Origin: Streptomyces sp. NBC_00536
GTDB taxonomy: Bacteria > Actinomycetota > Actinomycetes > Streptomycetales > Streptomycetaceae
Direction of reading: 5' to 3'
Length of the DNA: 64,000 nt
NCBI RefSeq assembly: GCF_036346295.1
Contig: NZ_CP107819.1
Location: 1 to 64,000, forward strand
How positions within the stretch are numbered: position 1 is the first letter of the stretch; the number at the start of each line of letters is the position of its first letter. Made by a program: the position numbers and the translations under genes. The notes under the pieces were generated by a model that made no database searches, was not told the DNA's origin, and saw only the letters and a list, made by a program, of their open reading frames with translations. Shown in pieces: positions 1-20,582 of the stretch.

Positions 1-300
1 GTACCTGAGCGCTGCGCGCTCAGGAGAGAACCGCTCCGCTTCGCGGAGCAGAGCCGGCCCTTTGGGCCGGGGTCCTACGCTTCGCTTCGGACTGTCCGGA
101 TTCCGCTGCGCTCCATCCGGACTGGCCCGCTGCGCGGGCCCAGAGAACTCCCTTGCTTCGCGCGGGAGCTGACCTCGTTTCACGGGGTGTAGACCTTCGG
201 CTTGTTGGGGTGTTCGCTTCGCTCCCACCCTGGTCCTTCCGGCTTCGCCTTCAGGACCATAGGGGCCCGCTTCGCGGTCCCCTGCTGGCAGCAGCGGGAA
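1..300. repeat. Telomere-like palindrome cluster at the replicon end
   Basis: The stretch is a chain of GC-rich hairpins with three-base loops. The stems are 4-12/16-24 (loop TGC), 33-39/43-49 (loop TTC), 54-60/64-70 (loop TTT), 94-101/115-122 (larger, imperfect interior), 124-130/134-140 (loop TGC) and 148-156/160-168 (loop TTC, one mismatch and one wobble). Weaker ones follow to about 290. Closely packed palindromes with 3-nt loops are the hallmark of Streptomyces telomeres, where the 3' overhang folds and is filled in by terminal-protein-primed synthesis. The order and sequences do not match the archetypal telomere starting CCCGCGGAGCGGG that I know. Either the very tip is missing or this is a non-archetypal type. 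The helicase gene just inside agrees with a telomeric position. Confidence 0.75.
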
Positions 301-800
301 GGCCGCGGCCTCTCTTCGGCTGACGGCCAGTGAGAGCCAACCGAGAGCAGGGACCTTGGATCCCCCACTCAGGTGCGTCCCCCCGGTAGGGCTCGTGGTT
401 GGTTTTGGGATCCCGCTACAGTCCATGACTCTTCCAGGCCCGAGAGGCCGTCCAACCGGCCCGGGCTTCGCTCTACCCCACCTGATTCATTATAGAGCCA
501 GGATAGATATGGGAACGGATCCGTTGCAGCGCTCCGAGTGCAGCGGCCGGGTCCCCCGTGTGCGGCGAATGCGGACACGGCCCAGTAGTGCACGGTAGTT
601 GGGCGAATTTCACCGCATCGTGTGGATCGGCGCATCTGCGCCCCGCACCAATGGGTAGTCCCTTGGTGGCTCTTCATGGGGCCAATATGACCAGGTACCC
701 AGGCCATCCATCGCCCTCACGTCCCATCACCTTTACGTACGGGTCGACCGTCCCCGCCTCCTCGAAATCGACCGGCCCACCCAGGAGGAGACAGGCCAAA
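301..800. other. Subtelomeric non-coding stretch upstream of the helicase
   Basis: About 500 bases without a convincing gene. The open frames here have no codon bias or recognisable motif. It must carry the promoter of the helicase at 801. An AGGAGG sequence at about 782-787 serves as its ribosome binding site, with a rather long spacing. Confidence 0.5.
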
Positions 801-3335
801 ATGCCGATCACAAACCGCGTCGACCAGCGCGAGGCCGCTCAGCGAGAAGCCATTGACGCAGTTCTCCGCGCCCTGGAACCGCCTACAAGAGCGCACGCGC
901 CCGAGGGAGGGCTCCGGACACAGGTGATCATGGCGACCGGATCGGGAAAGACCCGGGTGGCTATCCACAGCGCGGAAAAGCTCCATGCCAGCCGTGTACT
1001 GGTCCTCGTCCCCTCGCTGGACCTGCTCGCCCAGACCGAGGCCGCATGGCGCGAGGGCGGCCGTCGAGGACCCATGATCGGGATCTCCTCGCTACGCGGT
1101 GAGGAAGTCCCCTTCCCCAACACCACGGACGTGCACGAGCTGGTGGAGTGGACGCGAAGCCTGGACAAGGTCACCGTCTACGCCACGTACGCCTCCCTCG
1201 GCCTGGGCACCCTGGAGAAGGCCCACAACGCCGGCCTCTCAGCTTGGGACCTGATCGTCGTGGACGAGGCGCACCGGACGTCCGGGCGGATCGGAAAGCC
1301 GTGGGCGGTGATCCACGACAACACCCGGATCCCGGCTTTGCGCCGACTGTACATGACGGCCACGCCGCGGATGTGGCAGCTCGGGGACGAGGAACAGGCC
1401 GGCTCGCCGGGCGAGCTGGTCGCAAGCATGGACGACGACCCGGACGGGCCCTTCGGCAGCCGCTGCTTCACCCTGACGCTCGCGGAAGCCATCGACAGGG
1501 GAATCTGCGCCCCCTACCAGGTCGTATGCGTGGACATCACCGACCCCCAGCTCCAGGCCGCACAACTCCTGGGCGCCGAAGCCCGCTCCGAGGAGATCCG
1601 CGGGGCCCGGCTCGCCGCTCTGCAGACCGCCCTGGTGAAAGCATCCTCAGAAGAGGACTTCCGCAGAACGCTCGTCTTCCACCACGTCGTCAAAGAGGCC
1701 GAAGCCTTCGCCGCAGGCCTCCCCGACGTCACCGCGCAGCTGAACGACACGGACCCCAAGCTGTACCCGGCCACGATCTGGGCGGACTGGCTCTGCGGCG
1801 AGCACAGGCCACTCCACCGGCGCCGCGTCCTCGCCGAGTTCGCGGACGGCACCGCCACGGACGGCACCGCCGTGGAGAAGGCCTACCTGTCCTCCGTAAA
1901 GGTCCTCGGGGAAGGCGTCGACACCCGCACCTGCGACTCCGTCTACTGGGCCGACGTCCGCGGCTCCATGCCCGACCTCGTCCAGGCCCTCGGCCGCGCC
2001 CTCCGCATGCAGCCCGACGAAGGGAAAGTCGCCTCCCTCGTCGTGCCGATCCTCCTCGGACCCGGCGAGACAGCGGACAACATGCTCACCAGCCGGGCGT
2101 ACGACGGACTCGCCAAACTCCTCGAAGCACTCCGAGCCCACGACGCCCGGATCGTGGAGACCCTCGCCGAGCAGCAAGCGCCGAGCCGCTACAAGCCCGT
2201 CAGCGAACGCGGCAGCAGCAAGAACGGCAATGGGTCCGGCAGCGGCTCCGGGAGCGTCAGCGCCCCCGCCAAAACCCTGCTGAAGTTCTCCACACCGCGC
2301 GACCCGGCCGCGCTCGCAGCGTTCATCAACCTGCGCATCCTCAACCCCGAACACGAACACTGGCGCCGCGGGGTAGAAGCCACCGTCATCTACGCCCGCA
2401 CCCACGGCAACCTCCGTGTCCCATCCACCTTCCGCGTTCCGGACGCGGACAACACGAAAGCGTCCGGTTGGCCAGCCTCGCTCGCCAACTTCCCCCTCGG
2501 GCAATGGACCGCCGACGCCAGGAAGCGCTACACCCGCGGACACATGAACGCCGAGCGCGTCACCCAGCTGGAGAAACTCGGCATGATCTGGTCCCACCAC
2601 GACGTCGCGTGGGAAGAAGGCCTGGCCGCCGCACGCGGCTGGGCCGCCGAACACGGCCACCTCCTGGCCCCGCGAGACGCCACCTACCAGGGCACGGCAG
2701 TGGGAATCTGGCTGAAGAACGCCCGAGTCGCCGCCCGCAGAACGGCGGAGAACGAGCAGCGGCACTCCGAGGGACTGCCCCTCCAGCCATCGGCCTGGAC
2801 GATGACACAGGACCGCCGCAAGCAGCTGGAGGACATCGACCCCTCCTGGTGCCCGGACTGGCCCGTGACATGGCAGCGCTGCTTCCACCTCGTCCGACTC
2901 CACCTCAACACCGGCCAGGCACTACCAACCGCGGCAAGCAAGGTCATGCGCCAGGGCGAGGACCTCAGCCGGTGGGTCACCTCAGTCCGGCGCGGATGGA
3001 GCCAACTCACCAACGTGCAGCAGTGGATGTGCACGCAGATCCTCGGCATCACACCCGCGACCGAGAACAAGAAACCGAAACCCCGTACCAGCCAGGCCAA
3101 CAAGTGGGCGATGCACTACGAAGCCGCAACCCAGTTCTTCGAGCGCGAGGGGCACCTGGCTGTGCCCCGCAAGCACATCGAGACGATCACCATCGGCGGC
3201 GACAGCGAGGACCAGAAGCAACAAGACGTGGCGCTGAAGCTCGGCGCGTGGATCGCCAACCAACGCGCCCGGGCCGCCACCCTCGCACCGGAACGCGTCG
3301 AGCAGCTGTCCAAGGCCGGGATGCGGTGGGCGTAG
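801..3335 (+). CDS. Telomere-type superfamily 2 helicase with C-terminal HA repeats (TtrA-like)
   Basis: An 844-residue DEAD/DEAH-box ATPase. The Walker A motif MATGSGKT is at about residues 44-51, DEAH at 154-157, then an MTATP motif III and the arginine-rich motif VI QALGRALRM near 394. After a Gly/Ser linker near 475-485, the C-terminal half is built of ~65-residue helicase-associated (HA) repeats, recognisable by conserved Trp/Gly spacing and ends like LEKLGMIW and LSKAGMRWA. This is the layout of the terminal helicases found next to Streptomyces chromosome and plasmid telomeres (TtrA family), which have been linked to conjugal transfer or end function. I chose the ATG at 801, behind AGGAGG, over the earlier in-frame ATG at 558 because homology-like sequence begins there. 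It is the first gene inside the telomere and reads away from it. Confidence 0.85.
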   Translation: MPITNRVDQREAAQREAIDAVLRALEPPTRAHAPEGGLRTQVIMATGSGKTRVAIHSAEKLHASRVLVLVPSLDLLAQTEAAWREGGRRGPMIGISSLRGEEVPFPNTTDVHELVEWTRSLDKVTVYATYASLGLGTLEKAHNAGLSAWDLIVVDEAHRTSGRIGKPWAVIHDNTRIPALRRLYMTATPRMWQLGDEEQAGSPGELVASMDDDPDGPFGSRCFTLTLAEAIDRGICAPYQVVCVDITDPQLQAAQLLGAEARSEEIRGARLAALQTALVKASSEEDFRRTLVFHHVVKEAEAFAAGLPDVTAQLNDTDPKLYPATIWADWLCGEHRPLHRRRVLAEFADGTATDGTAVEKAYLSSVKVLGEGVDTRTCDSVYWADVRGSMPDLVQALGRALRMQPDEGKVASLVVPILLGPGETADNMLTSRAYDGLAKLLEALRAHDARIVETLAEQQAPSRYKPVSERGSSKNGNGSGSGSGSVSAPAKTLLKFSTPRDPAALAAFINLRILNPEHEHWRRGVEATVIYARTHGNLRVPSTFRVPDADNTKASGWPASLANFPLGQWTADARKRYTRGHMNAERVTQLEKLGMIWSHHDVAWEEGLAAARGWAAEHGHLLAPRDATYQGTAVGIWLKNARVAARRTAENEQRHSEGLPLQPSAWTMTQDRRKQLEDIDPSWCPDWPVTWQRCFHLVRLHLNTGQALPTAASKVMRQGEDLSRWVTSVRRGWSQLTNVQQWMCTQILGITPATENKKPKPRTSQANKWAMHYEAATQFFEREGHLAVPRKHIETITIGGDSEDQKQQDVALKLGAWIANQRARAATLAPERVEQLSKAGMRWA

Positions 3336-3522
3336 CCGCGCGCAGTGGTGGATATCAGGGGGACCTCGGCCCGCAGCCAGACGCAGGGGTAGCTCAATAG
3401 CAGTTCTGTAAACAACGGCCTGTCCGCATCGCCGACCGTACTGCCGCGCAACCCCAGCACGCTGGCATCCAGAACCCCGTTGCCCGCCACCGCGGGGCGT
3501 CACCCGGGGAACACAGGAGCCA

Positions 3523-5838
3523 TCAGCACCATCGCATGTCCAGGGCCTCCAGAGCGTTGATCTGCCGCAAAGTGAGCCGGGCGGGATCGCGGCGCCGTTC
3601 GCACAGCCAGCGGCGCAGCAGGAGCGGGTCGCCCGCATCGTCGCCGCGGTAGGCGGTGGGGACAGCGAGGTGCTGATGGGTGCGCCAGAACAGGTAGGCC
3701 TCGCGCAGCCCTCTGTGGAAGGCCCAGGCCGAGTATCCGCGAGGCCGGTCCAGCAGGTGGGCGAGGGGGTGGCGCAGAGGGATCTGGCCGAGGAGTTCGT
3801 GCTGGGTGGCGGTGAGGTGGGGCAGAGCGGCTATCTGATCGGCCAGCCAGTGGCTGTAGGGGTTGGTGGCCTGTTCGGGACCGAGGTCGGGGAAGGGAAC
3901 CTTGTTCCGGCGTGCGGCACTGAGGACGGCCGCGTAGGTACGGCGCCACTGCCCGCCCGGGTCCCAAGGGCTGTTCCACCAGGGGTAGATCTCGTTGAGG
4001 GCGCGGTGATAGCAGTAGGGCAGGGTGTGGCGGTCTGCTTCGGCGCGGCGTCGGGAGAGCCACATACCCAGACGGACCCCGTGATGGGTTTCGGTGCGGG
4101 CGGGGGCAAGGTGGCCATGGCGGCCGGTGTAGTCGCGTGCGATGTCGAGAGTGAACTCGATGCTGGTGGGCGGGTGTTCCCACCGGATGCCGAGGCGTTC
4201 GAGGTCTTGGGCGCGCTGTGGCAGGAGCATGCCGTGCTGTTTCATGGAGCGCTGCCTGCCGACCCACCAGCCCAGGTAGAAGCCGTCCGGAGCCTGGTGG
4301 CGGCTGGGAACGTTCAGATGGTGGTGGGTGTCGTAGTAGGCCTGGGCGTGCTGGTAGGCGGTGTCCCAGATCTGGTTGGGAGCGGACACGTGCCGGGGGC
4401 GGAGCAGGCCGATGAGTTCGTCGGCCCGTAGCGGCCGGGCAAGGGTGTAGGGGCGCTGGGTGCGGTCGCCACTGTGGAAAATGACGCGGTCGAAGACGAG
4501 TTCGTCCCACATGCTGAGGCTGATGAGGATCTGGTGCAGCAGGTGGAAATTGGTGCCTTTGACTCCGTCTTCGATTTTCTGGTTCGGGCTGAGGTAGACG
4601 GGGACGATGATGCGGGCGATCTTGCCCTGTCCGGGGATCTGGCGAAGGGCTCGGCCGATGGCCTGGAGGATCTGGACGGGGCTGCTCTTGGGATCGGCGA
4701 ACAGGACGGAGTCCAGAGCGGGGATGTCGACGCCCTCGGTGAAGCAGTTGCAGTTGCTGAGCACCGCTCTGCGCGGAAGATCCTCTCCCGCGGGGCCATG
4801 CGTGGGGGTGTCGATGAACTCCTGGAGTGCCGTGCGGCGGGTGATGGCGCGAAGGTTGCTGTGGACCACGTTGCTGGAGAGACGGCAGCGCATGTACGGG
4901 GGCATGTACTGCGCGGTCTCGGCGAGGGTTTCGGCGAAGACAGAGGCATCGGCGATGTAGGTGTGGAAGGTAAGGGTCCGCCTGAGGTCGTAGAGGTGCT
5001 GGGCCTGCAGGAGGGCGACTTGTGCGGCTGCCAGGCGCAGTCCCTCACTGGTGGCGTCGGTTCGTCCGGGATGGCGCAGGGCTCGTCTGAGGTCCTCTTC
5101 TGTGACTTCGACGGCGACGATCTCGTAGTCGGCCAGAAGGCCTTCGGCGATCGATTCGGCCAGGGAGAGACGGCAGACGACCGGCCCGTACAGGCGTGGG
5201 TCATCCATGGAGGCGATGACGTCGGTGCCCAGGGTGTCCCCGTCCGTGCCGGGGGCGAGGACGCGGGGTGTGGCGGTCATGTGCAGGCGCCTGCGGGCGG
5301 GAAAGAGGGCGTCGTCAAGGACACGGGCCCAGGGCCGGTTGCCGTCACCGGCGGTACGGTGGGCCTCGTCGCAGATGATGAGGTCCCAGCGGGCGAGGTG
5401 GTGGTCGCGGTGGGCCTCTTCGATCTTCTCCTGTGACTGGTAGGTGCAGAAGACATTCAGGGGGCCGAAGGCCGCAGCCCTGGCGGCGTGGTGGGCCAGT
5501 TCCGCGGATGATCCGACCCGCAGGACACCGGCGGGCAGGGTGCTGCCAGCCTCCTCGTGGCAGATGATCAGGTAGAGGCCCCGGCGGCCTTCACTCTGCC
5601 AGGCCTGCGCGGTCTGGTAGAGCAGTTGGATGTTGGGGGCGAAGAGCACCACGTTGCCGTGCGGGGCGATCCGGTGGGCGATGTGGAGGGCGACGAGGGT
5701 TTTGCCGGTGCCGGTGGCCATCACGACGCTGATGCGGGCGTGATGGTCGAGGAACGCGGAGACGCTGTTGTCGACGGCGACGGCCTGGTGGCCGCGCAGC
5801 GGGGTGGCGAGCTGTTCTTCGGTGACGGTTCCGGGCAC
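3523..5838 (-). CDS. Second DEAD/DEAH-box helicase with HA repeats
   Basis: A 771-residue relative of the first helicase on the opposite strand. It has Walker A MATGTGKT near residues 40-47, CDEAHRTAG as motif II, HMTATPR as motif III and QAIGRALRQIPGQGK as motif VI. At least three HA-type repeats follow, ending in LEALDMRWC. The two helicases converge, with a ~190-bp gap between their stops. Two divergent but related telomere-type helicases inside one presumed mobile element suggest either duplicated function (telomere processing or transfer) or a component of the transposon. It is divergent from the transposition operon starting at 6041, so the shared 200-bp gap at 5839-6040 probably holds both promoters. 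Confidence 0.82.
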   Translation of the reverse strand: MPGTVTEEQLATPLRGHQAVAVDNSVSAFLDHHARISVVMATGTGKTLVALHIAHRIAPHGNVVLFAPNIQLLYQTAQAWQSEGRRGLYLIICHEEAGSTLPAGVLRVGSSAELAHHAARAAAFGPLNVFCTYQSQEKIEEAHRDHHLARWDLIICDEAHRTAGDGNRPWARVLDDALFPARRRLHMTATPRVLAPGTDGDTLGTDVIASMDDPRLYGPVVCRLSLAESIAEGLLADYEIVAVEVTEEDLRRALRHPGRTDATSEGLRLAAAQVALLQAQHLYDLRRTLTFHTYIADASVFAETLAETAQYMPPYMRCRLSSNVVHSNLRAITRRTALQEFIDTPTHGPAGEDLPRRAVLSNCNCFTEGVDIPALDSVLFADPKSSPVQILQAIGRALRQIPGQGKIARIIVPVYLSPNQKIEDGVKGTNFHLLHQILISLSMWDELVFDRVIFHSGDRTQRPYTLARPLRADELIGLLRPRHVSAPNQIWDTAYQHAQAYYDTHHHLNVPSRHQAPDGFYLGWWVGRQRSMKQHGMLLPQRAQDLERLGIRWEHPPTSIEFTLDIARDYTGRHGHLAPARTETHHGVRLGMWLSRRRAEADRHTLPYCYHRALNEIYPWWNSPWDPGGQWRRTYAAVLSAARRNKVPFPDLGPEQATNPYSHWLADQIAALPHLTATQHELLGQIPLRHPLAHLLDRPRGYSAWAFHRGLREAYLFWRTHQHLAVPTAYRGDDAGDPLLLRRWLCERRRDPARLTLRQINALEALDMRWC

Positions 5839-6040
5839 CGGTGGCTCCCTTGCGATCGCATGCCTGGAACCTCATGGTCCGCGCAGGAAACCGTGCCCAG
5901 TTTCCTTTTCGCCGACCGGTTCACACTTTCGGGCATATCCGACGGGCAGGCAGGTTTCGGCGGCACGGTGCGGAGCAGCATGAGGCAGCCGTGCTCTCGA
6001 CAGCGGTGTCGGCAGCGGGGCAGCTCCGGAGAGGGGAAAG

Positions 6041-7162
6041 GTGAACGGGCAGGGAGCGGTGCCCTGGCGGTTCGGCCCTCGCCGGCCGCTGCCGGTGCGG
6101 GTCGTGCCGGTAGAAGGCGAGTCGACGGGCAGTTTCGTCGGCCGGCTCGCACACGGCCAGGGCCTTCAGCTGGAAGAGCTGCTGGAGCGCGTGGGCTTCG
6201 GACAGGCCTCAACCGATCCGGTGCGGGTTCGGGCCTATCCCTCCACCACCGAGATGTACGTCAACGAGCAGGGACTTGAGTACCTGGCGGTACTTGCCGG
6301 GAGCACCGTGCGGGCGCTGCAGGAGGCCCTGCCCAGCACGGCGGCCGCGCACCTGCTCAAGGCCGAAAGCACACCGGTGTGGAAGTGGCCGTGGCTGGTG
6401 CGCGAGGGTCACCTGGTGCCGCTGTGCGGGGCTTGCGCCGCCGACCGCGGGGTGCGGGAGAGGGTGTGGATGCTCAGTGCGGACCGCTGGCGGGTGTGCG
6501 GGGAACATGGGCGGTTCACCGACAACGACAGCACCGGGGGCGAGCGCGGGCTGTCGCTGAAACTGCTGCCGGAGACGGCACGGGCGCACCAGGAGCGGGA
6601 AGCCCTCCAGCGTCGGTACGGGCCAGCCGGCCGGGAGCTGTTCGCCGACGCCTTCCAGATCACGGTGCACTGGTGGACACACCTCCCCGGCACCCCACGC
6701 TGGATACAGCGGGCACGGGAGGCGGACCTCACGGCGCGGGCGGTGTCTACCGCGCCGCTCGTGCTGATGCCGGAGGCCGCGGCCCTGGCGGAGCGGCTGG
6801 CCGCTTTCGAGCAGGCGGACCGGCGGGACGGGCAGGCCCGTACGCGATGGCTGGACAGGCTGCGGGACGAGATGGACCGGTGGGGCGTCGACTTCCCCGT
6901 CGGCCGGCTGGCGCTGATGGACTGGCTGCAACGACACAGCACCCCCACCGCCCGGGCGCCGGACACCACCGGCGGGCTTGCCGTGGAAACGGCACCGCCG
7001 GTGCGACCTGGTCGTGCCGGCGGACCGGCCGCCGGAGAACCACGGCAGGTGCCGGACCTGCGACTGCCAGCCGGACACACACGAGCGGCACAATCCACCG
7101 GGGTCCTTCAGGCGGCATCGTGCCTCCCCTGGCAACTGGGACAGCCCGCATGCGAGATGTGA
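6041..7162 (+). CDS. TniQ-family targeting protein of the Tn7-like module
   Basis: The N-terminus has the TniQ signature: a proline-rich start, then VPVEGESTGSFVGRLA. This is followed by a helical region and a CxxC-type segment (LCGACAADRG) and a Trp-rich CRVCGEH-like part (WRVCGEHGRF), resembling the TniQ zinc-finger region. TniQ/TnsD proteins choose the target site of Tn7-like elements. The GTG at 6041 lies just behind a GGAGAGGGGAAAG purine stretch. The last ~50 residues in this frame look unlike TniQ and read as shadow sequence. A neighbouring frame (about 6985-7260) carries a Cys-rich tail with CRTC and CETRRRDGVLCGRRC, so a frameshift near 6980 may have changed the C-terminus. First gene of the tniQ-tnsA-tnsB-tnsC run. 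Confidence 0.72.
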   Translation: MNGQGAVPWRFGPRRPLPVRVVPVEGESTGSFVGRLAHGQGLQLEELLERVGFGQASTDPVRVRAYPSTTEMYVNEQGLEYLAVLAGSTVRALQEALPSTAAAHLLKAESTPVWKWPWLVREGHLVPLCGACAADRGVRERVWMLSADRWRVCGEHGRFTDNDSTGGERGLSLKLLPETARAHQEREALQRRYGPAGRELFADAFQITVHWWTHLPGTPRWIQRAREADLTARAVSTAPLVLMPEAAALAERLAAFEQADRRDGQARTRWLDRLRDEMDRWGVDFPVGRLALMDWLQRHSTPTARAPDTTGGLAVETAPPVRPGRAGGPAAGEPRQVPDLRLPAGHTRAAQSTGVLQAASCLPWQLGQPACEM

Positions 7163-7287
7163 AACCCGGCGGCGCGACGGCGTCCTCTGCGGGCGGCGAT
7201 GCCGCGGAGGATACGGGAACGGGCAGTGGCGTTCCCCGGCGGTCTGGTGTGCGCAGCGGCGCGACACTTCTGCGGGAAACGGGCGGC

Positions 7288-8049
7288 ATGAGCGCGGTGG
7301 AGAGTCCCGGCGGCCTGCCGGAGAGTGAGACGGTCCGGGGCCTGGAGCGGGATGTCGTGGCCTGGTACCGCGAACCGTACGGACCGGCGCGCGTCTGCGA
7401 CGCGGCGGGGCTTCGAGAAGTGGCGCTGGAAGAGTTCGGGCCGGTGAGCGAGCCGGTGCCCTACCGGGGCCGCAAAGGCATCATCACCTACTGGCCCCTC
7501 GCGAACGGGCGGACGGTGATATGCGGGTCGCTACGCATGTGGCACATCGCGCTCGCGCTGGACTTCGACGAGCACATCGATGCGTTCAGCTGCGAGCCAC
7601 TGGAACTGCGCTGGCGAGCCGGTCAGCGGTCAATGCGGTGGCGGCCCCCGTTCGTAGCCCGTACCCGGGACGGGGAGCGCCAGGTCCTGCTCCTGTCGTT
7701 CCCTGCAGGGGCGCCGTCCGCGGTGCACACCGACCGGCTGCGCGTGCTCGGCGAGGTCGCCCAGGCAGCCGGGTGGCAGATCAGGCACGTGCCAGACCCC
7801 TCCACCTTTCAGACGCAGAACCTGCGATGGCTGGCCGGCTACCGCTTCCCCTCCCCGGCAGCAGCAGGTGAACGCGAGGCGCTGCTGGGCGCCTTCGGCC
7901 AGCCCATCGGGCTGCGGCAGGGATGTGCGGCCAGTGGTCTGCCTGCACTGGCCGCGCTGGACTTGGCGTACCGGATGATCTGGCAGCGAAGGCTGCACAT
8001 CGACTGGCAGCGGCTGCTGTTGCCCGATTCACTCGCCTGGGCCGGCTGA
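7288..8049 (+). CDS. tnsA: TnsA-like heteromeric transposase endonuclease subunit
   Basis: A 253-residue protein placed directly upstream of tnsB. It resembles actinobacterial TnsA-like endonucleases. Acidic and basic residues sit in the expected layout of a restriction-enzyme-like fold: the segment EHIDAFSCEPLELRW, then an outer beta strand RPPFVARTRDGERQVLLLSF, then a GWQIRHV region. TnsA cuts the 5' strand at the element ends while TnsB cuts the 3' strand, giving cut-and-paste movement. I start it at the ATG at 7288, where the conserved part begins. The open frame extends much further upstream but overlaps TniQ. Ten bases separate its stop from tnsB. The assignment rests on position and partial similarity, so catalytic residues are not certain. 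Confidence 0.7.
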   Translation: MSAVESPGGLPESETVRGLERDVVAWYREPYGPARVCDAAGLREVALEEFGPVSEPVPYRGRKGIITYWPLANGRTVICGSLRMWHIALALDFDEHIDAFSCEPLELRWRAGQRSMRWRPPFVARTRDGERQVLLLSFPAGAPSAVHTDRLRVLGEVAQAAGWQIRHVPDPSTFQTQNLRWLAGYRFPSPAAAGEREALLGAFGQPIGLRQGCAASGLPALAALDLAYRMIWQRRLHIDWQRLLLPDSLAWAG

Positions 8050-8059
8050 GGAGCACTCC

Positions 8060-10435
8060 ATGGCAAAGCGTGGAGCGGACCGAGGCACGGTCGCGGTCCT
8101 GCGTCTGGGGACGCGGGTTCGGTGGGAGGGTGAGCGCTGGACGGTGGTCACGTTGGCAGGGCCCTTGGTCACGCTTGAGCCGTTCCCTGGCGCCGGTCTG
8201 CCGCAGGCGGTGCTGTACCGATGGTTGACGGGCGCGGCTGACTTTGCGTTGCTCGACACCGAGAATGAGCCGATGTCTCCCAGCAAGGTCACAGCTCCGG
8301 GGGCGTTGGAGGGACTGTCTCGTGCTGACCAGGAGCAGGCCCGGATCTGGCATGAGCGCCTGGTGGAGATCGATACCGGCTTCGCTCCGGGTGCGGCCCG
8401 GGCGCGGCCCGAGTTCGACCCGGGCACCACCAATCTGGGCCAGCGGTGCGCCGCCATGTCGGTGCGGCTTGGCGACGCCGGTGTCACCGTCTCTGCCCAC
8501 ACGCTGGCGGACAAGCGACGGGCCTGGAAGGCCGCCGGAGAGAACGCGGCGGTGCTGCTGCCGAAGAAACGCGGGCGCGTTCCGGGAGGCCGCACCGACC
8601 GCAGGGTCCTCGCAGCCATGCAGGAGGTGGTGAGCAGCTACGCGCGCAAGTCGGACGTGACCGAGGACGCCGTCTTCGAGAAGGTGATCCAGCTTCTGAA
8701 GGCTCGCTACCCCGGCGAAATGAAGGATCCCGTCCAGGCGAAGGCCCTGCTGGTTCCGCGCACGACTTTCTACGTGCGTATGAAGGACACCGGGCTCGCG
8801 GAGCAGCTACGCGACACCACCCGCCGGCGTACGGCGAGGGCGGCCAAGCCCGCCCTCCCCCACGGCAGCACTTTCATGCGCCCCCGACGGCCGGGCGAAG
8901 TGACGCAGATCGACACCACGCCGCTGCGGATCGTGGCCCGGGGCGACGACGGGAAGCCGGTGAGCGTGGAAATGACCACGTTGGTCTGTGTCTCCACCCG
9001 CTCCATGTGCGCCCTGATGATCACTCCGACGGCGAGGAAGGGCGAAACCGGTGGCGGCCGGGCGACGCGAGCGGTCGATCTGACGCTGCTGCTGGCGCAG
9101 TGCTATGCGCCGTGGCCGGTGCTTCCCGGATGGGACCCTCTTTCCGCGGCCGCGCTCTCCCGCCTCCCGTTCGCCTCCCTCCAGGCCGCCGACCCCCGCT
9201 TCACCGAGGCGACCGCGGCACGCCCGGTCATCCACCCCGAGATGATCGTCTACGACCAGGGAAGCCCCTATGCGAGCAGTCACTTCCATGAGGTGTGCGC
9301 CCGCCGGCGGATCGCCCTTCGCCCTGCCCGCAAGGGCACCCCGACGGACAAGCCACTGGTGGAGCGCTTCTTCACTACCCTGGCCACCCGATTCAGCCAG
9401 CACGTGACGCACGGCTGGCAAGGCCGCAGCCATCACACCCGCGGCCGGGGAGTGGAACGCAAAGCGCTGTACACCATCGACGAGCTGCAGCACATGGCCC
9501 AGGAATGGGTCGCGTTGGAGTACCAGCAGTCCTTCCACCGGGGCCTGCGCAGCCCCTTCCTGCCCAGGGTGCACCTGTCCCCCAACGACATGTATGCGGT
9601 ACAGGTCGCGCGCTGCGGCTATCGGCCGCTGCCGCTGGCACCAAGGGAGAGCCGCAAGTTCCTCCTGGCAGCCTGGGTCAAGCCCAGCACAGAGGGGTTC
9701 ACGGTCGGCCACCGTACTTACCAGCCCACACGGAAGGACCTGGCGCGCTACGAGGAGATCCTCCTGCGCGGCCCCTCCGGCCGCCCCGGCAAGAACGGCC
9801 GCTGGGAGTGCCGGTACAACCCGTACCGGCCCGAGCGGGCCTGGCTGTATGACCACACACGTGACGGCTGGGTCGAGACCGACTTCATCCACCGGTCCTT
9901 GCTGACCTGCCAGTGGACAGCGGACATGTGGCAGGAGGCCGCTGAACGCCACACCGGGGCTGGCGGCGATCCAGGTGAGGAGGCCGCGATCGCCCTCGCG
10001 CTGGAGCAGCGGCGACGGCGCACTCGCAAGCCGCCCCCTCAGCGCCGCACGTCCGACGAGCCGTTTCAGGGTCTGCCTCTCCAGGTCGACGATCACAGCC
10101 CTGGGGACCGGTACGTCGATCTACCCGTGATCGACCTGTCGACGCTCAGGCCGTACCCGTCCCTGCCCGTTTCCCCCGCCTCGCAGACCTCTTCGGTTCC
10201 CGCTCCATCGTCCGGCAAGGAGACCGGTGAGGGGGCGGGGGCCGACGCGCTCTCCATGCTGGATGCGCTGTTCGCCACCGAGGGGGCCGCGGACAGCGAT
10301 CAGGAGGAAGCCAGCTCCCTGGATGCATCGCTCGGCTACGCCAGCGAGATCTTGGACCTGGAAGAACCGGAAGACACAGACGTGTGGGACGCCGACGTGT
10401 GGGAGGGCGAGGAGGAAACAGGAACGCCCAGCTGA
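8060..10435 (+). CDS. tnsB: TnsB-like DDE transposase
   Basis: A 791-residue retroviral-integrase-type transposase. The catalytic triad is readable: D285 in TQIDTTPL, D399 in IVYDQGSPY and E435 in TDKPLVERFF, giving a DDX35E spacing. An N-terminal helix-turn-helix region lies near residues 180-230, a C-terminal beta-barrel (Mu-type) region near 540-600, and an acidic tail rich in Glu and Asp ends the protein. Tn7 TnsB uses its C-terminus to contact TnsC, so the acidic tail may do the same. TnsB binds repeated sites at the element end, and candidate sites are the 20-bp repeats at 13772-13810. The ATG at 8060 has a GAGGAGC sequence upstream. Confidence 0.9.
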   Translation: MAKRGADRGTVAVLRLGTRVRWEGERWTVVTLAGPLVTLEPFPGAGLPQAVLYRWLTGAADFALLDTENEPMSPSKVTAPGALEGLSRADQEQARIWHERLVEIDTGFAPGAARARPEFDPGTTNLGQRCAAMSVRLGDAGVTVSAHTLADKRRAWKAAGENAAVLLPKKRGRVPGGRTDRRVLAAMQEVVSSYARKSDVTEDAVFEKVIQLLKARYPGEMKDPVQAKALLVPRTTFYVRMKDTGLAEQLRDTTRRRTARAAKPALPHGSTFMRPRRPGEVTQIDTTPLRIVARGDDGKPVSVEMTTLVCVSTRSMCALMITPTARKGETGGGRATRAVDLTLLLAQCYAPWPVLPGWDPLSAAALSRLPFASLQAADPRFTEATAARPVIHPEMIVYDQGSPYASSHFHEVCARRRIALRPARKGTPTDKPLVERFFTTLATRFSQHVTHGWQGRSHHTRGRGVERKALYTIDELQHMAQEWVALEYQQSFHRGLRSPFLPRVHLSPNDMYAVQVARCGYRPLPLAPRESRKFLLAAWVKPSTEGFTVGHRTYQPTRKDLARYEEILLRGPSGRPGKNGRWECRYNPYRPERAWLYDHTRDGWVETDFIHRSLLTCQWTADMWQEAAERHTGAGGDPGEEAAIALALEQRRRRTRKPPPQRRTSDEPFQGLPLQVDDHSPGDRYVDLPVIDLSTLRPYPSLPVSPASQTSSVPAPSSGKETGEGAGADALSMLDALFATEGAADSDQEEASSLDASLGYASEILDLEEPEDTDVWDADVWEGEEETGTPS

Positions 10436-10523
10436 CCGCCCCGCCGCCACCGATCCCGCGCCGCATGCCCACCAGTGCTCGGCACGGCCGCCCCCTGCAC
10501 GTGAACGCCCCGAAAGAGGAACC

Positions 10524-11648
10524 ATGAAGGCCACCGTGGAGTCGCAGAAGAACCGCGAGCAGCGACTGCAGATGCAGATGCGCGCCACCCCGATGCGCCC
10601 GCTCAATCTCCTCTACCGCAGCGGGTGGGACGAGTTCGTCCGCGAAGAGGTCAACCGCCCGCACGACTCCCTGGCCCCTGGCGCTGACGCCCTGGCGGAT
10701 TCCGAGGAAGTACGGGCAGCTCGGATCGCCTACCACCGGCACATGCGGATGGTCCTCACCACCCCAATGGAGAAGGTGATCAATGAAGTGGCACAGGCGG
10801 TCCACCTCAACAGCGGGCGCCGTGACGGACTGCTGGACCGTGTGATCGACGGCCCGCATGGGACAGGCAAGAGCGCGCTGCTTCGCGCGGTGGGCCGACG
10901 GGTGCAGCAGGACGTGGAGAAAGGCCAGCGCGGGCACGACGCGAACGTCGTTCCGGTGGTGCACATCACCGCTCCCGACGAGGCCGAGTCCAAGACGGCA
11001 TGGGTCTGGGAGATCGCCTGCTTCCTCGGCCTGAACCCGGCCCCCAAGAACAAGACCGAGCTGCTCGACTGGCGCAAACACCCCGACCTGTCCCAACCGG
11101 TCAACTACGTACTGGAAGTTGTGCAGACACGGCTCCTTCTCGTCGACGGCCTGGACACCGCCACCCCCGACCAACTGATCTGCGTACTCCCGTACTTCGA
11201 CTACCTGCGCAACAAGCTCGGCATCACCACGATCTTCTGCGGCACCGGTGCCAACGCCCGCATCCACCAGGCCCGCCACCGCGCCGACAACCAGGTCCGC
11301 GTCCACACAGCACCCCTGCGCGCGGCCGAAGCCCCCCGCGGCATGCCGGATACTGCGGCATACCGCTCCCCTGGCCTTCCTGTCGCGTGGATGCTCCCCC
11401 TCCCCCTGGACAAGGACGATCCGGAGACCTTCCGCCGGGTCCTGGCCGGATTCCAGGAAGACCTCAGCCTGTACAAGCTCGACGACCACGCACTCACCCG
11501 CCATGCCACACAGCTCCACGCGATCACCGACGGCCACATCGCGCTCCTGTCCCAGCTCATCTGCACCGCCGCCGTCCAGGCGATCGTGTCGGGAACGGAG
11601 AACATCACCCTCGCCGACCTCAGGGCCATCAACATCAGGGCCCGGTAA
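10524..11648 (+). CDS. tnsC: TnsC/TniB-like AAA+ ATPase
   Basis: A 374-residue AAA+ ATPase with Walker A GPHGTGKSAL near residues 110-118 and Walker B RLLLVDGLD near 203-210. A Thr/Gly-rich sensor I segment (TTIFCGTGAN) follows. TnsC bridges the target selector (TniQ) and the TnsAB transposase. The ATG at 10524 follows an AGAGGA ribosome binding site with ideal spacing. The earlier in-frame starts overlap tnsB and lack similarity. It ends the transposition operon and converges with the DUF6414-type gene at 11760. Confidence 0.87.
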   Translation: MKATVESQKNREQRLQMQMRATPMRPLNLLYRSGWDEFVREEVNRPHDSLAPGADALADSEEVRAARIAYHRHMRMVLTTPMEKVINEVAQAVHLNSGRRDGLLDRVIDGPHGTGKSALLRAVGRRVQQDVEKGQRGHDANVVPVVHITAPDEAESKTAWVWEIACFLGLNPAPKNKTELLDWRKHPDLSQPVNYVLEVVQTRLLLVDGLDTATPDQLICVLPYFDYLRNKLGITTIFCGTGANARIHQARHRADNQVRVHTAPLRAAEAPRGMPDTAAYRSPGLPVAWMLPLPLDKDDPETFRRVLAGFQEDLSLYKLDDHALTRHATQLHAITDGHIALLSQLICTAAVQAIVSGTENITLADLRAINIRAR

Positions 11649-11759
11649 CCCGCCCAACCACCCCCGGCATGCCGCCGCCACGCGAACACAACGATCCGCG
11701 AGTCCCCCCGGACGCCGAACCGCACAAGCATCCCGCAGCGGACAGCACACGACCCGGGC

Positions 11760-12629
11760 TCAGTACAAAGCGATGGCATTCACCACAACGGCAGGTCCGC
11801 TGATGTAGGCGTTCACATCGCCGCTCGGCAAAGCAATGCCCACATCGGCCCAGGCCCTGCGCAGCTCCGCCAAGACGTCGTCCACCTGCGTCATGACCGT
11901 CCGCCGGAACATGTACTCCCAGCCCGACAGGAGCCACTCCTCCGCGCTCAAATACCCGTCCGGGGAACCATCGATGATCCGCGACACGGTACCGAGCACT
12001 CGCAGACCGCCCTCGACACGATCCGCCGAGGCATCGTCAATGAAATGGTTCGGGTCCACGTTGACATACACCTTGCATGGCAGCCCGGAACGTTCCAGCT
12101 CAAGCAGGACCGGCACAGGCGGAAGCTCGTTGTGCAGATACACCCGCTTCATCTGCTCCTGAAGACGGGGGTCCGTCCCACTGAGCGTGGCAGGCAGGTT
12201 GCCCAAGTCCTCCAGGTTCGCGTCCTCCAGGACCCGGCGCAGGATGAAAAACAGCTTCCCGAAGTGACTCGCAGCCGTGATCCTCGTGATCCCCTCGACC
12301 TCCACGAGGTCATCCCGGGCCAGAACACCGTCCGCTCCCGGCCGGGTCCTGACCGCGCCGTCCGCGATCAGAGTGTCGATGACTCTGCTGACCTTCGCCT
12401 TGAGGCTGGGATCAAGACTGTAGGTGCTCTGCCGCTCGACATCGCTTCCCCGCGAGGCATCGACACCGGCGGCCGCCGCTCCCACACCGAGCTTGAGCTT
12501 GCCCCCGCCCGAACGCCGCCGGGTCGTCTTCTCCACGATCTCCTCGCGCTGCGGCACATCGATCTCGTGGTAGTCCGCCTCAGCGAAGAGAGTATCCGTA
12601 TCCAGGTAGATCGGTGTACGCAAGGCCAT
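11760..12629 (-). CDS. DUF6414-like protein of unknown function
   Basis: A 289-residue protein beginning MALRTPIYLDTDTLFAEAD, the IYLDTDTL opening typical of DUF6414 proteins. A low-complexity Gly/Ala/Lys segment follows (about residues 30-50). The middle reads like an alpha/beta domain with a SxxxKxKVSRVIDTLI stretch. The C-terminal half contains LLSGWEYMFRRTVMTQVDDVL and ends at IALY. No catalytic motif is visible. I start at the ATG at 12629, because the 27 residues upstream are low-complexity Gly-rich shadow. It is the last intact gene before the transposon end and points toward tnsC, so it is probable cargo of the element. DUF6414 proteins occur near defence and mobile genes, but I cannot assign a role. 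Confidence 0.6.
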   Translation of the reverse strand: MALRTPIYLDTDTLFAEADYHEIDVPQREEIVEKTTRRRSGGGKLKLGVGAAAAGVDASRGSDVERQSTYSLDPSLKAKVSRVIDTLIADGAVRTRPGADGVLARDDLVEVEGITRITAASHFGKLFFILRRVLEDANLEDLGNLPATLSGTDPRLQEQMKRVYLHNELPPVPVLLELERSGLPCKVYVNVDPNHFIDDASADRVEGGLRVLGTVSRIIDGSPDGYLSAEEWLLSGWEYMFRRTVMTQVDDVLAELRRAWADVGIALPSGDVNAYISGPAVVVNAIALY

Positions 12630-13497
12630 ATCCAGAGTGTCCCATCCCCCACTGACACCACACGCTCCTCCAGCCCAGGCCCCGCCCGTGCCGTCCCCGG
12701 GCGCTCCCACTTACCGCCCAAGGCCCGCGCCCACGACCCCTGTCAACCATCACCACCCAGCGACGGCGGACACCATCAAGCGCCGAGACGCCCACCGACA
12801 ACCAGACGCCCCGTACCCGCACAGCAAGATCCAACCCAGGCTCCCCGTCCGCGCTGCAGCCCCACGCAATAGGAATCCCGATATCTCCACAACTTTCCAC
12901 ACCCGCACCTACACCCACAGGCCAGAGCCACCCCTCCCCCAGAACCCCCAAACCACATAGCCCCTGACAGCGCACCAGCAATCCCGAGATCCCCACAACC
13001 TCAGCAGATCAGAGACCTAGAAAGACAGCAGCAAACCCAGGAATCCACAGCCGCCACAGCGGCCATGATCAGCCCCGCAGCCGCCTCCCCGGCGCCCGCG
13101 GCCGCACCATGCCTCACAGACACCGCAATCCCCTGCGTTCCCCGTGCACAGTGCACGCGGTATTACGGCGAAAGCCCCACCGACGTCGCCGACTACGGCG
13201 TCGTTCTCCCCTGCCTGAGGCTCGGCTACGTCCGCTGCCTGGACTCCCTAGGCCCCCGCCTTTCCGAAGAACACGCATAGGGCCCCTCAGCCCGAGGGCC
13301 GATGCATCCCGGACCATCACCCGCCCCCGAACAACCCTCCACGAGGCGGGTGAACCGGCGAAAGCCTCTACCAGCACCCCACCCCGCAACAGCCGGTCAC
13401 CCGGCAGACAGGACGCCCCCCGCCCGAGCCGCGGTACGTCCTCGACACCTGCATCGACGCACAGCTGCAGACAGGCAGCCCCGATCAGCCGTCCGGT
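12630..13497. other. Gene-poor internal flank of the transposon end
   Basis: Nearly 900 bases without a convincing gene. It is C-rich on the plus strand and less GC-rich than its surroundings near 12870-13050. Two imperfect direct copies of a ~21-bp sequence (AATCCCGATATCTCCACAAC and AATCCCGAGATCCCCACAAC) lie at 12874 and 12980, about 106 bases apart. They might be protein binding sites or decayed repeats. Confidence 0.4.
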
Positions 13498-13650
13498 TCA
13501 CACACGCGGGTATTCGTGGCCGGGCGGCGGGTACTCCTGGCCGGGGAGTTCGGCGACGCCGTAGAGGACGATCCACTCGAACTCCGACAGCTCCCCGCCC
13601 CGCCCGAGGCCGTCGTCAGCGGCTTCGTCGATCGCCTTCAACAGCCGCAT
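13498..13650 (-). CDS. Possible small acidic protein, hypothetical
   Basis: A 50-residue frame beginning MRLLKAIDEAADDGLG and ending HEYPRV. Its composition (many Glu/Asp, then a Pro/Tyr-rich tail with two GxEYPP/R motifs) is more protein-like than that of neighbouring frames. A GGGAG sequence lies about 8 bases before the ATG. No family is recognised. It lies just inside the presumed transposon end. Confidence 0.35.
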   Translation of the reverse strand: MRLLKAIDEAADDGLGRGGELSEFEWIVLYGVAELPGQEYPPPGHEYPRV

Positions 13651-13772
13651 CGACCGGCTCCCGGTCCGCCATAGTCCGCGCCAACGACGGCCGGGGCAGA
13701 CCGGCCGTGGTCTGCGGACACTCGGACCGGATGCCGGGACTGCCCGCAGACAGCCCCAAACGCCCACCGCAA

Positions 13773-13886
13773 TTCTCAATACATTTGCGGGACTCTCATC
13801 CAACTTGCGGGACCGCAGGTCAAGACCCCTCCGACACCGGAAACAACCCATCACGGACCGCCTCATAGACCCACAGCCTCACAGGT
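13773..13886 (-). repeat. Candidate inner end of the telomeric Tn7-like transposon (copy A)
   Basis: A 114-bp sequence that recurs inverted at 20256-20368 with roughly 85% identity by eye and one 1-bp indel. Read on the minus strand it begins ACCTGTGAGGCTG. The first TGT corresponds to the TGT...ACA tips of Tn7-family elements, and the tip would be at 13883. On its inner side are two 20-bp-spaced repeats, CCGCAAGTTGGATGAGAGT (13792-13810) and CCGCAAATGTATTGAGAAT (13772-13790), in the arrangement expected of TnsB binding sites. Its orientation places the element body to the left, toward tnsC and the telomere. Confidence 0.65.
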
Positions 13887-14041
13887 TGTGAACGTTCTCG
13901 TTATTCGGCTCTGTCGGGGATCTTGTGGTGCTCCTTCAAGGGCAGGGGCGGCGAGTCACTTCGCAGCCCGTTCTGCCGGCACTGACTCAAGACGGAGAAG
14001 TTCTTCGGCGGAACAGTCGGAATCGGGTCTGTCCAGTAAAC
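13887..14041. other. Flank between transposon end and ISL3 element, with a solo IS-end-like motif
   Basis: No gene. The sequence CTCTGTCGGGGATCTTG at about 13909-13925 closely resembles CTCTGCCGGGGATCTTG at about 39594-39610, which looks like a shared terminal repeat of some lost insertion sequence. Confidence 0.35.
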
Positions 14042-14078
14042 GGCTCTGTCTCACATTCGGTGGTGACGGAGGGTGGTG

Positions 14079-14888
14079 TTATCCGAGAAGGATGCGGTGA
14101 CGGAGCAGGGTGAAGCCTGCTCGTCCGTGCATCTGGCGGGCCATCCGCTTGGTCTTGGTGTTGATCCCCTCGGTCGGGCCGTTGCTGTACGGAAGTGTGA
14201 CCGCGGCGATCACAGCGTCGCGGTCTCGCTCGAGGCCGCGACTGAAGGCGTGCAGGTGCGGCAGGTCGGCAGTACGGACCTGGGCGATCCAGAGTCCGAG
14301 CGCGTCGGCGTTCTCGGGCCGAGGCTTCAGAAGCGGGGCGAAAGTCCGGATGGCAGCGGACAGGTGGGTCATCTCGGGGCAGGCAGCGGTCAGCTGGTCC
14401 AGGAGGTCGCGATGTCCTGCCTTAAGGCTCTCGGGCCTGGTCAGGAGCATCCGGGCGAGCCTGCGCGGGGAGATGTGGCTGCGGTCGGCGTCCGCGCGAC
14501 CTTGGTTGATGTACTTGTGCAGGAGGTTGAGGCAGCCTGTGAACCCTAGGGCCTTGATCTCTTCGAAGAGGTGCTGGACGGGAACAGCAGGGTCGTCAGC
14601 CCGGCGTCTGCGCAGGTGCTCGCGGTGGGGATCGACGAGGCTGGACCGGTATTTGGGGACGCGGAGCATCCGCTCCGGCCGGTCGGCGCGGGCATAGCGT
14701 TTGACGGTGTTCAGGGCCAGTTGGAGGCGGCGGGCGCATTCGAGGAGGCCCACGCCCTGGTTGAGTAGGTCGTGGACTTGGTGCCAACGTTCCAGCGTGG
14801 TCTTGGCTCGGGGCCCGTCATAGAGAGGGGCGTCGAGCACGGTGGCCCAGCAGTTGCTGTGTGCCTTCACCTCGTCCAGGGCGGCTTC
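14079..14888 (-). CDS. ISL3 transposase, 3' exon
   Basis: The last ~269 codons of the transposase, starting EAALDEVKAHSNCW at the intron border. It contains the second half of the DDE domain, with a helix-turn-helix segment (GLLECARRLQLALNTVKRYAR) inserted as in ISL3 proteins, and the final catalytic region YSNGPTEGINTKTKRMARQM, where the Glu of TEGINTK is the likely third acidic residue. Joined directly to the 5' exon it gives HVWHNLC-EAALDEV without a break in frame, matching the DRWHVWHNL context of ISL3 transposases. Confidence 0.85.
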   Translation of the reverse strand, partial: EAALDEVKAHSNCWATVLDAPLYDGPRAKTTLERWHQVHDLLNQGVGLLECARRLQLALNTVKRYARADRPERMLRVPKYRSSLVDPHREHLRRRRADDPAVPVQHLFEEIKALGFTGCLNLLHKYINQGRADADRSHISPRRLARMLLTRPESLKAGHRDLLDQLTAACPEMTHLSAAIRTFAPLLKPRPENADALGLWIAQVRTADLPHLHAFSRGLERDRDAVIAAVTLPYSNGPTEGINTKTKRMARQMHGRAGFTLLRHRILLG

Positions 14889-19242: not shown

Positions 19243-19992
19243 GCACAGGTTGTGCCACACATGCCAGCGGTCACTGACCTGCACGGCGTCCGGCAGGGCC
19301 CGGCGGATGGCTTCCGCGTAGGTAGTCGATCCGTCACGGCACACGACCTCGACCCCCGGATGGGCACGCAGCCACGCTTCCAGCGTGCCGGCGGTGCGGT
19401 CGGGCAGGACATCGATCCGTTCATGGGTCTCGGCGTCGATCACCACGGTGGCATAGCGGTGCCGTCGTCGCAGAGCGAAGTCGTCCACCCCGATCACTCG
19501 CGGCACCTGCCCGACCGGCAGGGGGATGCCAAGCAGGACACGAAGGGCCGTGTGACGGGACAGACCCATGGCGAGTACCGCCAGCAATCGGACTCCCGCC
19601 CGGCCCGCTAACTCCTTCACCACCGCCTTGACCTGCCTGGTCAGACGGGTAGTGCGCCTCTGATAGCGCTCTAACACCCCTGGCACCTGCTCACGGAAGG
19701 TCTGGAGGCACCCGCGCGTGGGACACACCAGGCGCCGCACTCGTACTTGGAGCACCACCCGTCGGCCGTCGACCGGCACATCGGCCACCTTCCGCCAGTG
19801 ATAGCCGTGCACCTGCCCCGACGGTGCCCCGCACACCGGGCAGGGCGCGGGCTCCTGCGGAGCCCGCGCCCTCACCACGACCCGCCCGCCGTCATCGACC
19901 ACATCCTCGATGACCAGCGGGGATATCCCCGAAAACACCATCTGCACGAGCTCGTTGACATCCATCACACCGACAACAACGACCTCCGCCAC
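19243..19992 (-). CDS. ISL3 transposase, 5' exon
   Basis: The N-terminal ~250 codons. A zinc-ribbon-type start shows [24 protein letters not shown] and [11 protein letters not shown], with paired cysteines. An HTH-like segment follows ([26 protein letters not shown]), then the first DDE motif [21 protein letters not shown] and the second [14 protein letters not shown]. The frame reaches [10 protein letters not shown] at the intron border. Read-through into the intron adds ~30 spurious residues. The start could be the first ATG at 19992 or the one nine codons later at 19965. Confidence 0.87.
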
Positions 19993-20036: not shown

Positions 20037-20221
20037 TCCCCTCGGTACCGCCAGGCGGCTTCGTAGCCGCGGTTCCAGTCCTGGCGTTCGGTGTCGAAGA
20101 CGGCGTAAGTGATCCACTTCGCGATGAGCGCGGGGTCGCGGGGCGCCGCGAAGCGAAGCAGCAGCCGGGCCTCTTCGCCGTCGTCGTCGGGTGCGTCGCC
20201 GATCTGTGCGTTCTCGTTCAT
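20037..20221 (-). pseudogene. Fragment of an HA-repeat helicase (linker and first HA repeat)
   Basis: It begins MNENAQIGDAPDDDGEEARL, then LLRFAAPRDPALIAKWITY and ERQDWNRGYEAAWRYRG. This matches the linker/HA boundary of the helicase at 801-3335 (LLKFSTPRDPAALAAFI...HWRRGVEATVIY). It is cut at the left by the ISL3 element. No helicase core remains. Confidence 0.6.
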
Positions 20222-20255
20222 GGTGCGGTGTGGCTGTTGACGGGCTGTCTCTTTG

Positions 20256-20368
20256 ACCTGTGATGCTGCGGGTCGTTGAGGCGGTCGGTGATGGGTGGTT
20301 CTGGTGTCGGAGGGGTCTTGAGCTGCGGTGCCGCAAGTTGGATGAGAGTCCCGCAGGTGGATTGAGAA
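20256..20368 (+). repeat. Second, inverted copy of the Tn7-like transposon end (copy B)
   Basis: A 113-bp inverted match to 13773-13886, starting ACCTGTGATGCTG. The TGT tip is at 20259. Two 20-bp-spaced internal repeats lie at 20331-20349 (CCGCAAGTTGGATGAGAGT, identical to copy A) and 20351-20369 (CCGCAGGTGGATTGAGAAC). Its orientation puts the element body on the right, where only helicase debris and insertion sequences are found, so it marks a second, decayed element. Confidence 0.62.
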
Positions 20369-20430
20369 CAGCAGTCCGCGGTCCGGCTCGGGGGTTGTGG
20401 TGTTCTCGGGATTTCACACAGCCCCTCCTG

Positions 20431-20582
20431 CGCCCAGTCCACTCCGAGTTCGGCGAGTGCGTGCAGTTGCCCGGCGTCGAGCCGGTCGCGGCGCTGTTTC
20501 TGGTTCACGACCCACACCCCAGTCCGATGCGGCCCGCTCGGCAACTCCTCAGCTTGCCGTTTATCCACCGGCGTCGAACTGA
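20431..20582 (-). pseudogene. C-terminal HA-repeat fragment of a helicase
   Basis: The frame reads TPVDKRQAEELPSG, then TGVWVVNQKQRRDRLDAGQL and HALAELGVDWA. This is the last part of an HA repeat with its usual ending, as in the intact helicases (LSKAGMRWA). It runs toward transposon end copy B and is cut upstream by a transposase gene. Confidence 0.55.

Follow-up and report, generated by a model that had tools for sequence, protein, structure and literature searches.

Introduction

Telomeric transposons of linear bacterial replicons, the principle of which was reportedly published by Hsieh et al. in Science in 2025 (eadp1973), are said to combine Tn7-like genes with one specific end and to have the telomere as their other boundary. 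These elements reportedly sit on the ends of both chromosomes and plasmids, move by means of two bridged telomeres and carry genes for the upkeep of telomeres. PMC8743542 reports that, in streptomycetes, the classes of telomere do not track phylogeny, and gives transposition as one possible cause of their exchange. Here we analyze the left 64 kb (hereafter, the window) of C1, the 8,664,208-bp chromosome contig of Streptomyces sp. NBC_00536, whose genome comprises four contigs. An original prediction, made from the letters of this DNA alone, had described a Tn7-like transposon with the telomere as its outer boundary. We find that bases 1-13049 form one unit, running from the telomere tip to a single Tn7-type end, and that this unit is very likely a telomeric transposon that moves together with its telomere.

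Three replicon ends share one boundary

A search of the genome with window bases 1-2000 returned the same sequence at the right end of C1 and at the start of C2, a 267,650 bp plasmid. Once these ends were fetched and aligned, the block from 1 to 13049 proved to be present at three replicon ends (C1 left, C1 right and C2 left), with the C1 right copy aligning to window 3-13049 and the C2 left copy to window 15-13049. The three 13.0-kb copies have 0 substitutions among them and a single 1-bp indel near base 56, at which C1 right and C2 agree and C1 left differs. Each copy holds the telomere, two helicase genes (Hel1 and Hel2), the genes for TniQ, TnsA, TnsB and TnsC, and a DUF6414 gene. All three copies stop at the same last base (...GGAATCCACA up to the junction; reverse complement TGTGGATTCC...), and the shared ...AATCCACA is followed by GCCGCC at C1 left, TAGGGC at C1 right and CAGTGC at C2 left. 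When the 210-bp inner end was searched for in the same genome, three matches were obtained (20 of 20 candidates scored), and these are the three copies already described. The same boundary is therefore found at more than one replicon end, as expected of a telomeric transposon. Because the three junctions share that base, the transposon's inner end is placed at 13049 and not at 13886; the original prediction, which had taken the sequence at 13773-13886 for the end of the element, missed it by 837 bp.

The near-identity of the copies suggests that the telomeric transposon has been active recently and, because such copies are found at three replicon ends with different flanks, it likely moves as a unit with its telomere. 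The right tip of C2 is also palindromic but is different from the block, having a weak 57-bp similarity to the window telomere, so that C2 carries the block at one end only. A plasmid with one tip of each kind fits the replacement of a single arm tip. A search of the ends of C3 and C4 for the element's proteins gave no match. The features of the element and of the DNA next to it are as follows.

1..296, no strand: telomere, a row of palindromes (fold score, matches to plasmid tips, recurrence of the block at C1 right and C2 left)
801..3335, plus strand: Hel1, HA-domain helicase (Pfam HA and ResIII; homologues near plasmid tips)
3523..5838, minus strand: Hel2, second HA helicase, convergent with Hel1 and linked to the tns genes (Pfam)
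6041..7162, plus strand: TniQ (PF06527, 41.2 bits, cut-off 27)
7282..8049, plus strand: TnsA-like endonuclease (NF033179.1 of NCBIfam, 115.7 bits, cut-off 110)
8060..10435, plus strand: TnsB, DDE transposase with D285, D399 and E435 (Pfam, alignments)
10515..11648, plus strand: TnsC, AAA+ ATPase, TniB/AAA_22 (Pfam; Walker A and B read in the translation)
11760..12710, minus strand: DUF6414 protein (PF19952, 38.2 bits, cut-off 25)
12874..12892, minus strand: TnsB-site-like repeat (19-base motif), inner copy, putatively bound by TnsB
12980..12998, minus strand: TnsB-site-like repeat (19-base motif), middle copy, putatively bound by TnsB
13030..13049, minus strand: transposon terminus, TGTGGATTCCTGGGTTTGCT, with the junction between 13049 and 13050 (three copies, one stop, three flanks)
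13050..13886, no strand: target DNA, remnant of a different Tn7-like element with its end at 13773-13886 (uninterrupted relative; genome G173)

A single transposon end

In the reverse complement the terminus reads TGTGGATTCCTGGG..., and a 21-base stretch is repeated, with 3 mismatches, 48 and 154 bases inside it (AGGTTGTGGGGATCTCGGGAT and AAGTTGTGGAGATATCGGGAT; 449 bp tested). The element thus has a TGT terminus together with a repeated TnsB-site-like motif, to which TnsB would bind. An end motif was written from the two repeat copies, both of which consequently match by construction; at up to 3 mismatches, it has 3 matches in the 64-kb window versus 0.04 expected by chance, and the sole independent one is at 20395-20413. 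Neither this motif nor the terminal 20-mer revealed a second end in the interval from the telomere to the tns genes, although strongly divergent sites would escape such a search; to this extent, the claim that no end lies between the telomere and the core genes holds. At 5 mismatches, one extra weak match appeared at 11214, inside tnsC, and none on the telomere side. Each copy therefore shows one transposon end with the telomere as the other boundary, and not two inverted flanking ends.

A second case in Streptomyces sp. NBC_00557

In Streptomyces sp. NBC_00557 (G117), the first 6,599 bases are common to C1 left, C2 left and C2 right, at 99.96-99.97% identity; C2 of this genome is a 342,739-bp plasmid. 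Again, all copies stop at the same base (...GCGACA, reverse complement TGTCGCTGATC...), with the flank CCGCG on C1 and GGCGT on both C2 ends, where the inverted repeat continues to about 8,969, and the right tip of C1 is related but different. TnsB of NBC_00557 is 31% identical to that of the window over residues 13-654 and represents another TnsABC family, and the telomere shares two short weak matches only, of 26 and 34 bp, with that of the window. It matches other plasmid tips (12 of the 12 rows listed, 86 records) and belongs to what we take to be the "archetypal" class. The recurrence of the pattern in NBC_00557 shows that it is not confined to a single assembly.

The telomere and the genes behind it

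Bases 1-296 are a Streptomyces-type telomere. The bottom strand of 1-290 has a fold z of -4.75, with 0 of 200 shuffles equally good. Window 1-560 is matched by 54 plasmid records; in all 25 of the best matches listed, the sequence of 1-296 falls at the tip of a linear Streptomyces plasmid, within about 360 bp of the record end. A row of palindromes of the same telomere class, about 80% identical to that of the window, was also noticed at C1:8641339-8641581 (locus L011:17131-17373), 22.6 kb inward of the right chromosome end and with its tip facing outward; it looks like a buried former chromosome end.

The Tn7-like gene set of TnsA, TnsB, TnsC and TniQ is complete, TniQ, TnsB and TnsC being found by Pfam, as were both HA helicases, and TnsA by NF033179.1. 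The rve match of TnsB (E 3.7e-6) lies below the Pfam cut-off; D285, D399 and E435 are present in every one of the 10 sequences aligned, one of which is the window's own, and D399 and E435 align to TnsB of Tn6677. The scoring of 7,988 candidates put the nearest other TnsB at 68% identity, with 57-60% for those listed next. The translation of TnsC contains GPHGTGKS (Walker A) and LLLVDG (Walker B). The original prediction had read the palindromes at base 1, the two HA helicases, the full gene set, the three TnsB residues and the Walker motifs from the sequence, and all of these readings stand.

The start codon of Hel1, at 801, was picked by eye. This helicase, presumably TtrA-like, has homologues in 769 plasmid records, with identities of up to 82%, and 34 of the 40 listed are <5 kb from the record end. 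Hel1, like the palindromes, probably functions at the telomere; Hel2 likely belongs to the transposon proper, and the DUF6414 protein is possible cargo. Among the Pfam and NCBIfam hits of the element's seven genes, no terminal-protein family was matched. Both helicases match restriction-type models of PADLOC over their helicase part; a reading of the pair as a defence system was dropped, and these matches were taken as shared helicase domains.

The target DNA

The 13886-type end belongs to another Tn7-like family, a member of which the telomeric element landed in. An uninterrupted relative of 13050-13886, 94% identical, lies at C1:8525299-8526136 and spans both chromosomal insertion points. 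Further copies of the 13886-type end are found at window 20256-20368 and C1:8525299-8525583, and it recurs in other genomes; in one of these (G173:C15), a different TnsC homologue (30% identical) lies just ahead, its match breaking off 256 bp short of such an end. The C1 right copy of the telomeric element enters the target DNA 226 bp further in than the C1 left copy, and the two chromosomal flanks are related at this 226 bp offset, being 98.7% identical with 9 substitutions in 749 bp. As there are substitutions between the flanks and none between the elements, at least one arm has an element younger than its flank, unless local conversion altered the flank. Where the flanks differ, C1 right agrees at some positions, read by eye, with the copy at C1:8.525 Mb.

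In plasmids, flank 13050-14070 has partial matches only (17 records). The C2 flank had no match in the window, the last 40 kb of C1, locus L073 or the right 20 kb of C2, and its 601 bp had none elsewhere in the genome (40 of 150 candidates scored). No empty site for it was found in plasmids, where the matches start at least 2.6 kb inside the junction (15 of 94 rows listed).

Two other features of this region were recorded. At window 20205-20520 there is a second 13886-type end in the opposite direction, with a TnsB-site-like match at 20395 (2 mismatches); its flank, 20205-20255, is shared with the copy at C1:8.525 Mb and has similar counterparts in G173 and G012, suggesting a preferred target site of the older 13886-type element. 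In addition, window 14079-19992 contains an ISL3 transposase gene interrupted by two tandem group II introns with a 2,177-bp period, the maturases of which (15023-16462 and 17200-18639, minus strand) have equal Pfam scores.

Relatives of the transposition genes

We drew 295 genomes of the genus and scored 3 candidates per genome; a TnsB match at E 1e-40 or better was found in 111 of them. Among the nearest relatives, the order Hel2-TniQ-TnsA-TnsB-TnsC recurs at each end of CP109185, a linear plasmid of S. cellulosae, and also near both ends of the G098 chromosome contig. The left end of G093 has Hel2-TniQ-TnsB-TnsC in that order, with no TnsA match found, and an 83,960-bp scaffold (G053:C2) has Hel2 beside TniQ, TnsA and TnsB, with TnsC not matched; this scaffold also holds the 1 locus (48% identical) returned by a TnsB-only scan of genome contigs. 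The Hel2 homologues beside the tns genes in the S. cellulosae plasmid, G098, G093 and G053 are 48-54% identical. The inverted repeat of CP109185 is 99.98% identical over the 45.7 kb compared, and the first 38 or so bases of its tip recur at or near the ends of the other plasmids listed (15 of 25 records listed, 3 from S. cellulosae). Right after tnsC on this plasmid (locus L054, 23786-34897), the annotation alone gives phospholipase-D-like, helicase and methyltransferase genes, resembling defence cargo.

Of the TnsB places listed, 16 of 28 (15 single-contig genomes) are <100 kb from a contig end, versus 0.64 expected, a figure of light weight given that the genome set was picked, several members for their terminal matches, and that left and right copies are not independent. 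Any TnsB match is found in 182 plasmid records, versus 769 with a Hel1 match, so that most Hel1-like helicases occur without this transposase. NBC_00868, the single such record inspected, has the telomere class of the window and an HA helicase; its annotation table, which is incomplete, lists no tns gene over the first 20 kb. We read the locus as two apparently separable modules, one for the telomere (tip and Hel1) and one for transposition (Hel2-TniQ-TnsABC), which would be differently paired in different replicons.

Discussion

We propose a model in which TnsA and TnsB would cut at the 13049 end under the control of TnsC and TniQ. Because one telomere gives one end only, the pair of ends for TnsB would be supplied by two telomere-bearing ends, either held together by their terminal proteins or joined head to head. 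On insertion into another replicon, the target would be split and both halves capped with telomeres. Loss of the half without an origin would leave, as the net outcome, the replacement of one arm tip. The idea in the original prediction that two joined telomeres may be needed agrees with what is reported of the published telomeric transposons.

A plasmid and the chromosome could instead have swapped ends by homologous or break-induced recombination, without any transposition. Linear plasmids and chromosomes are known to exchange their ends (PMC8743542; S. rimosus pPZG101, cited in PMC8627663), and both chromosome arms here share a further 0.75 kb past the element. Against it stands the stop of all three copies at one base, which is a terminus of the TGT type followed inward by a repeated motif; the C1 and C2 flanks have no detectable homology, and another base-exact TGT terminus behaves alike in NBC_00557. 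We therefore consider such an exchange improbable. It is more doubtful still that a conventional Tn7-like element with two ends went in close to the telomere and then lost its outer end, even though elements of the Tn7 family are normally two-ended and TnsB homologues are also found away from contig ends. The loss would have to predate three placements with the same telomere tip outermost, so that the shared tips largely refute it, and the telomere side has no match to the end motif even at 5 mismatches. The reading that the true inner end is at 13773-13886, with 13050-13886 as part of the element, draws on the fact that this sequence is an element end itself and recurs in other genomes, once about 0.25 kb behind a TnsC homologue; it is refuted, and we give it almost no credence, as the C2 copy lacks 13050-13886 and C1 right lacks the first 226 bp of it.

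Several observations weigh against a telomeric transposon. There is no target duplication among the three flanks, and the flank 5-mers are not mutual reverse complements; the lack of a 5-bp duplication is expected if the other half was lost, yet it leaves transposition as a likely step rather than a proven one. Because the chromosomal flanks are related, C1 right could derive from C1 left by arm copying and an adjacent deletion, a problem from which the comparison of C1 with C2 is free. The inner end of the S. cellulosae element was located neither by direct repeats nor by alignment breakpoints. More generally, direct repeats resolved no inner end in S. cellulosae, G098, G093, G053, G151, G290 or G196, and breakpoints of pairwise alignments resolved none among the relatives. 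The contig tips of G098 and G093 have no similarity to the other tips compared, so these assemblies may end before the telomere or have another kind of telomere, and the left contig of G098 extends about 3.6 kb past the point that matches its right tip.

Some homologues also look internal, namely the core of G290, at 4.0 Mb of an 8.05-Mb contig, and tnsB of G007 (38% identical), at 5.2 of 9.96 Mb. In both genomes dnaA is near the contig start (at 137 kb in G290 and 244 kb in G007), and the copies lie roughly opposite to it, which fits joined chromosome ends without proving them; single-contig Streptomyces assemblies may hide joined telomeric ends. A search beside the G290 copy turned up no inverted repeat and no S. 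cellulosae telomere. The G012 copy is 264 kb from the end, not at the tip, and a search of 60 kb around it gave no match to TniQ, TnsA or a helicase. That of NBC_01230 is about 146 kb from the end, with tnsB in pieces. The original prediction had named two findings that would count against it: a conventional second end on the telomere side did not turn up, whereas internal-looking homologues do exist, in G290, G007, G012 and NBC_01230. The three copies and NBC_00557 support its central proposal, namely a telomere that forms the outer boundary and travels with the element, which would thus carry telomeres from one replicon to another.

With the principle already published in 2025, the surprise of a telomeric transposon here is limited. 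The locus is nevertheless a clear instance, found in nature, of a telomere being replaced, likely by transposition, because it offers a boundary exact to the base, three ends with a near-identical element, a different flank at each and, for two of the targets, an uninterrupted relative. Moreover, related transposition cores behind different telomeres bear on the scattered telomere classes of streptomycetes noted in PMC8743542. Related cores adjoin unrelated telomeres, and a single copy would recently have replaced three replicon tips within one cell line; we speculate that the Hel2-TniQ-TnsABC core works behind any telomere and that such transposons, rather than homologous recombination, would be a main cause of this scatter, a proposal to which we give slightly less than an even chance.

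Compared with known systems, the window element likely belongs to the published telomeric transposons, with which it shares Tn7-like genes, one end, a telomere boundary and a place on chromosome and plasmid ends. It resembles Tn7-like transposons in its full gene set, its TGT...ACA-type terminus and a repeated end motif like TnsB sites; in contrast to them, a single end was found, and on its other side the element is bounded by the tip of the DNA molecule itself. Like the invertron telomeres of Streptomyces with their terminal HA helicases, it has a row of palindromes and an HA helicase <1 kb from the tip, but here the telomere is joined to a transposition module. The S. cellulosae plasmid CP109185 has the same core order at both ends (TnsB 56%, Hel2 51% and TniQ 48% identical), whereas its tip has no similarity to the window telomere and its TniQ and TnsA genes are separated by about 14 kb of other genes.

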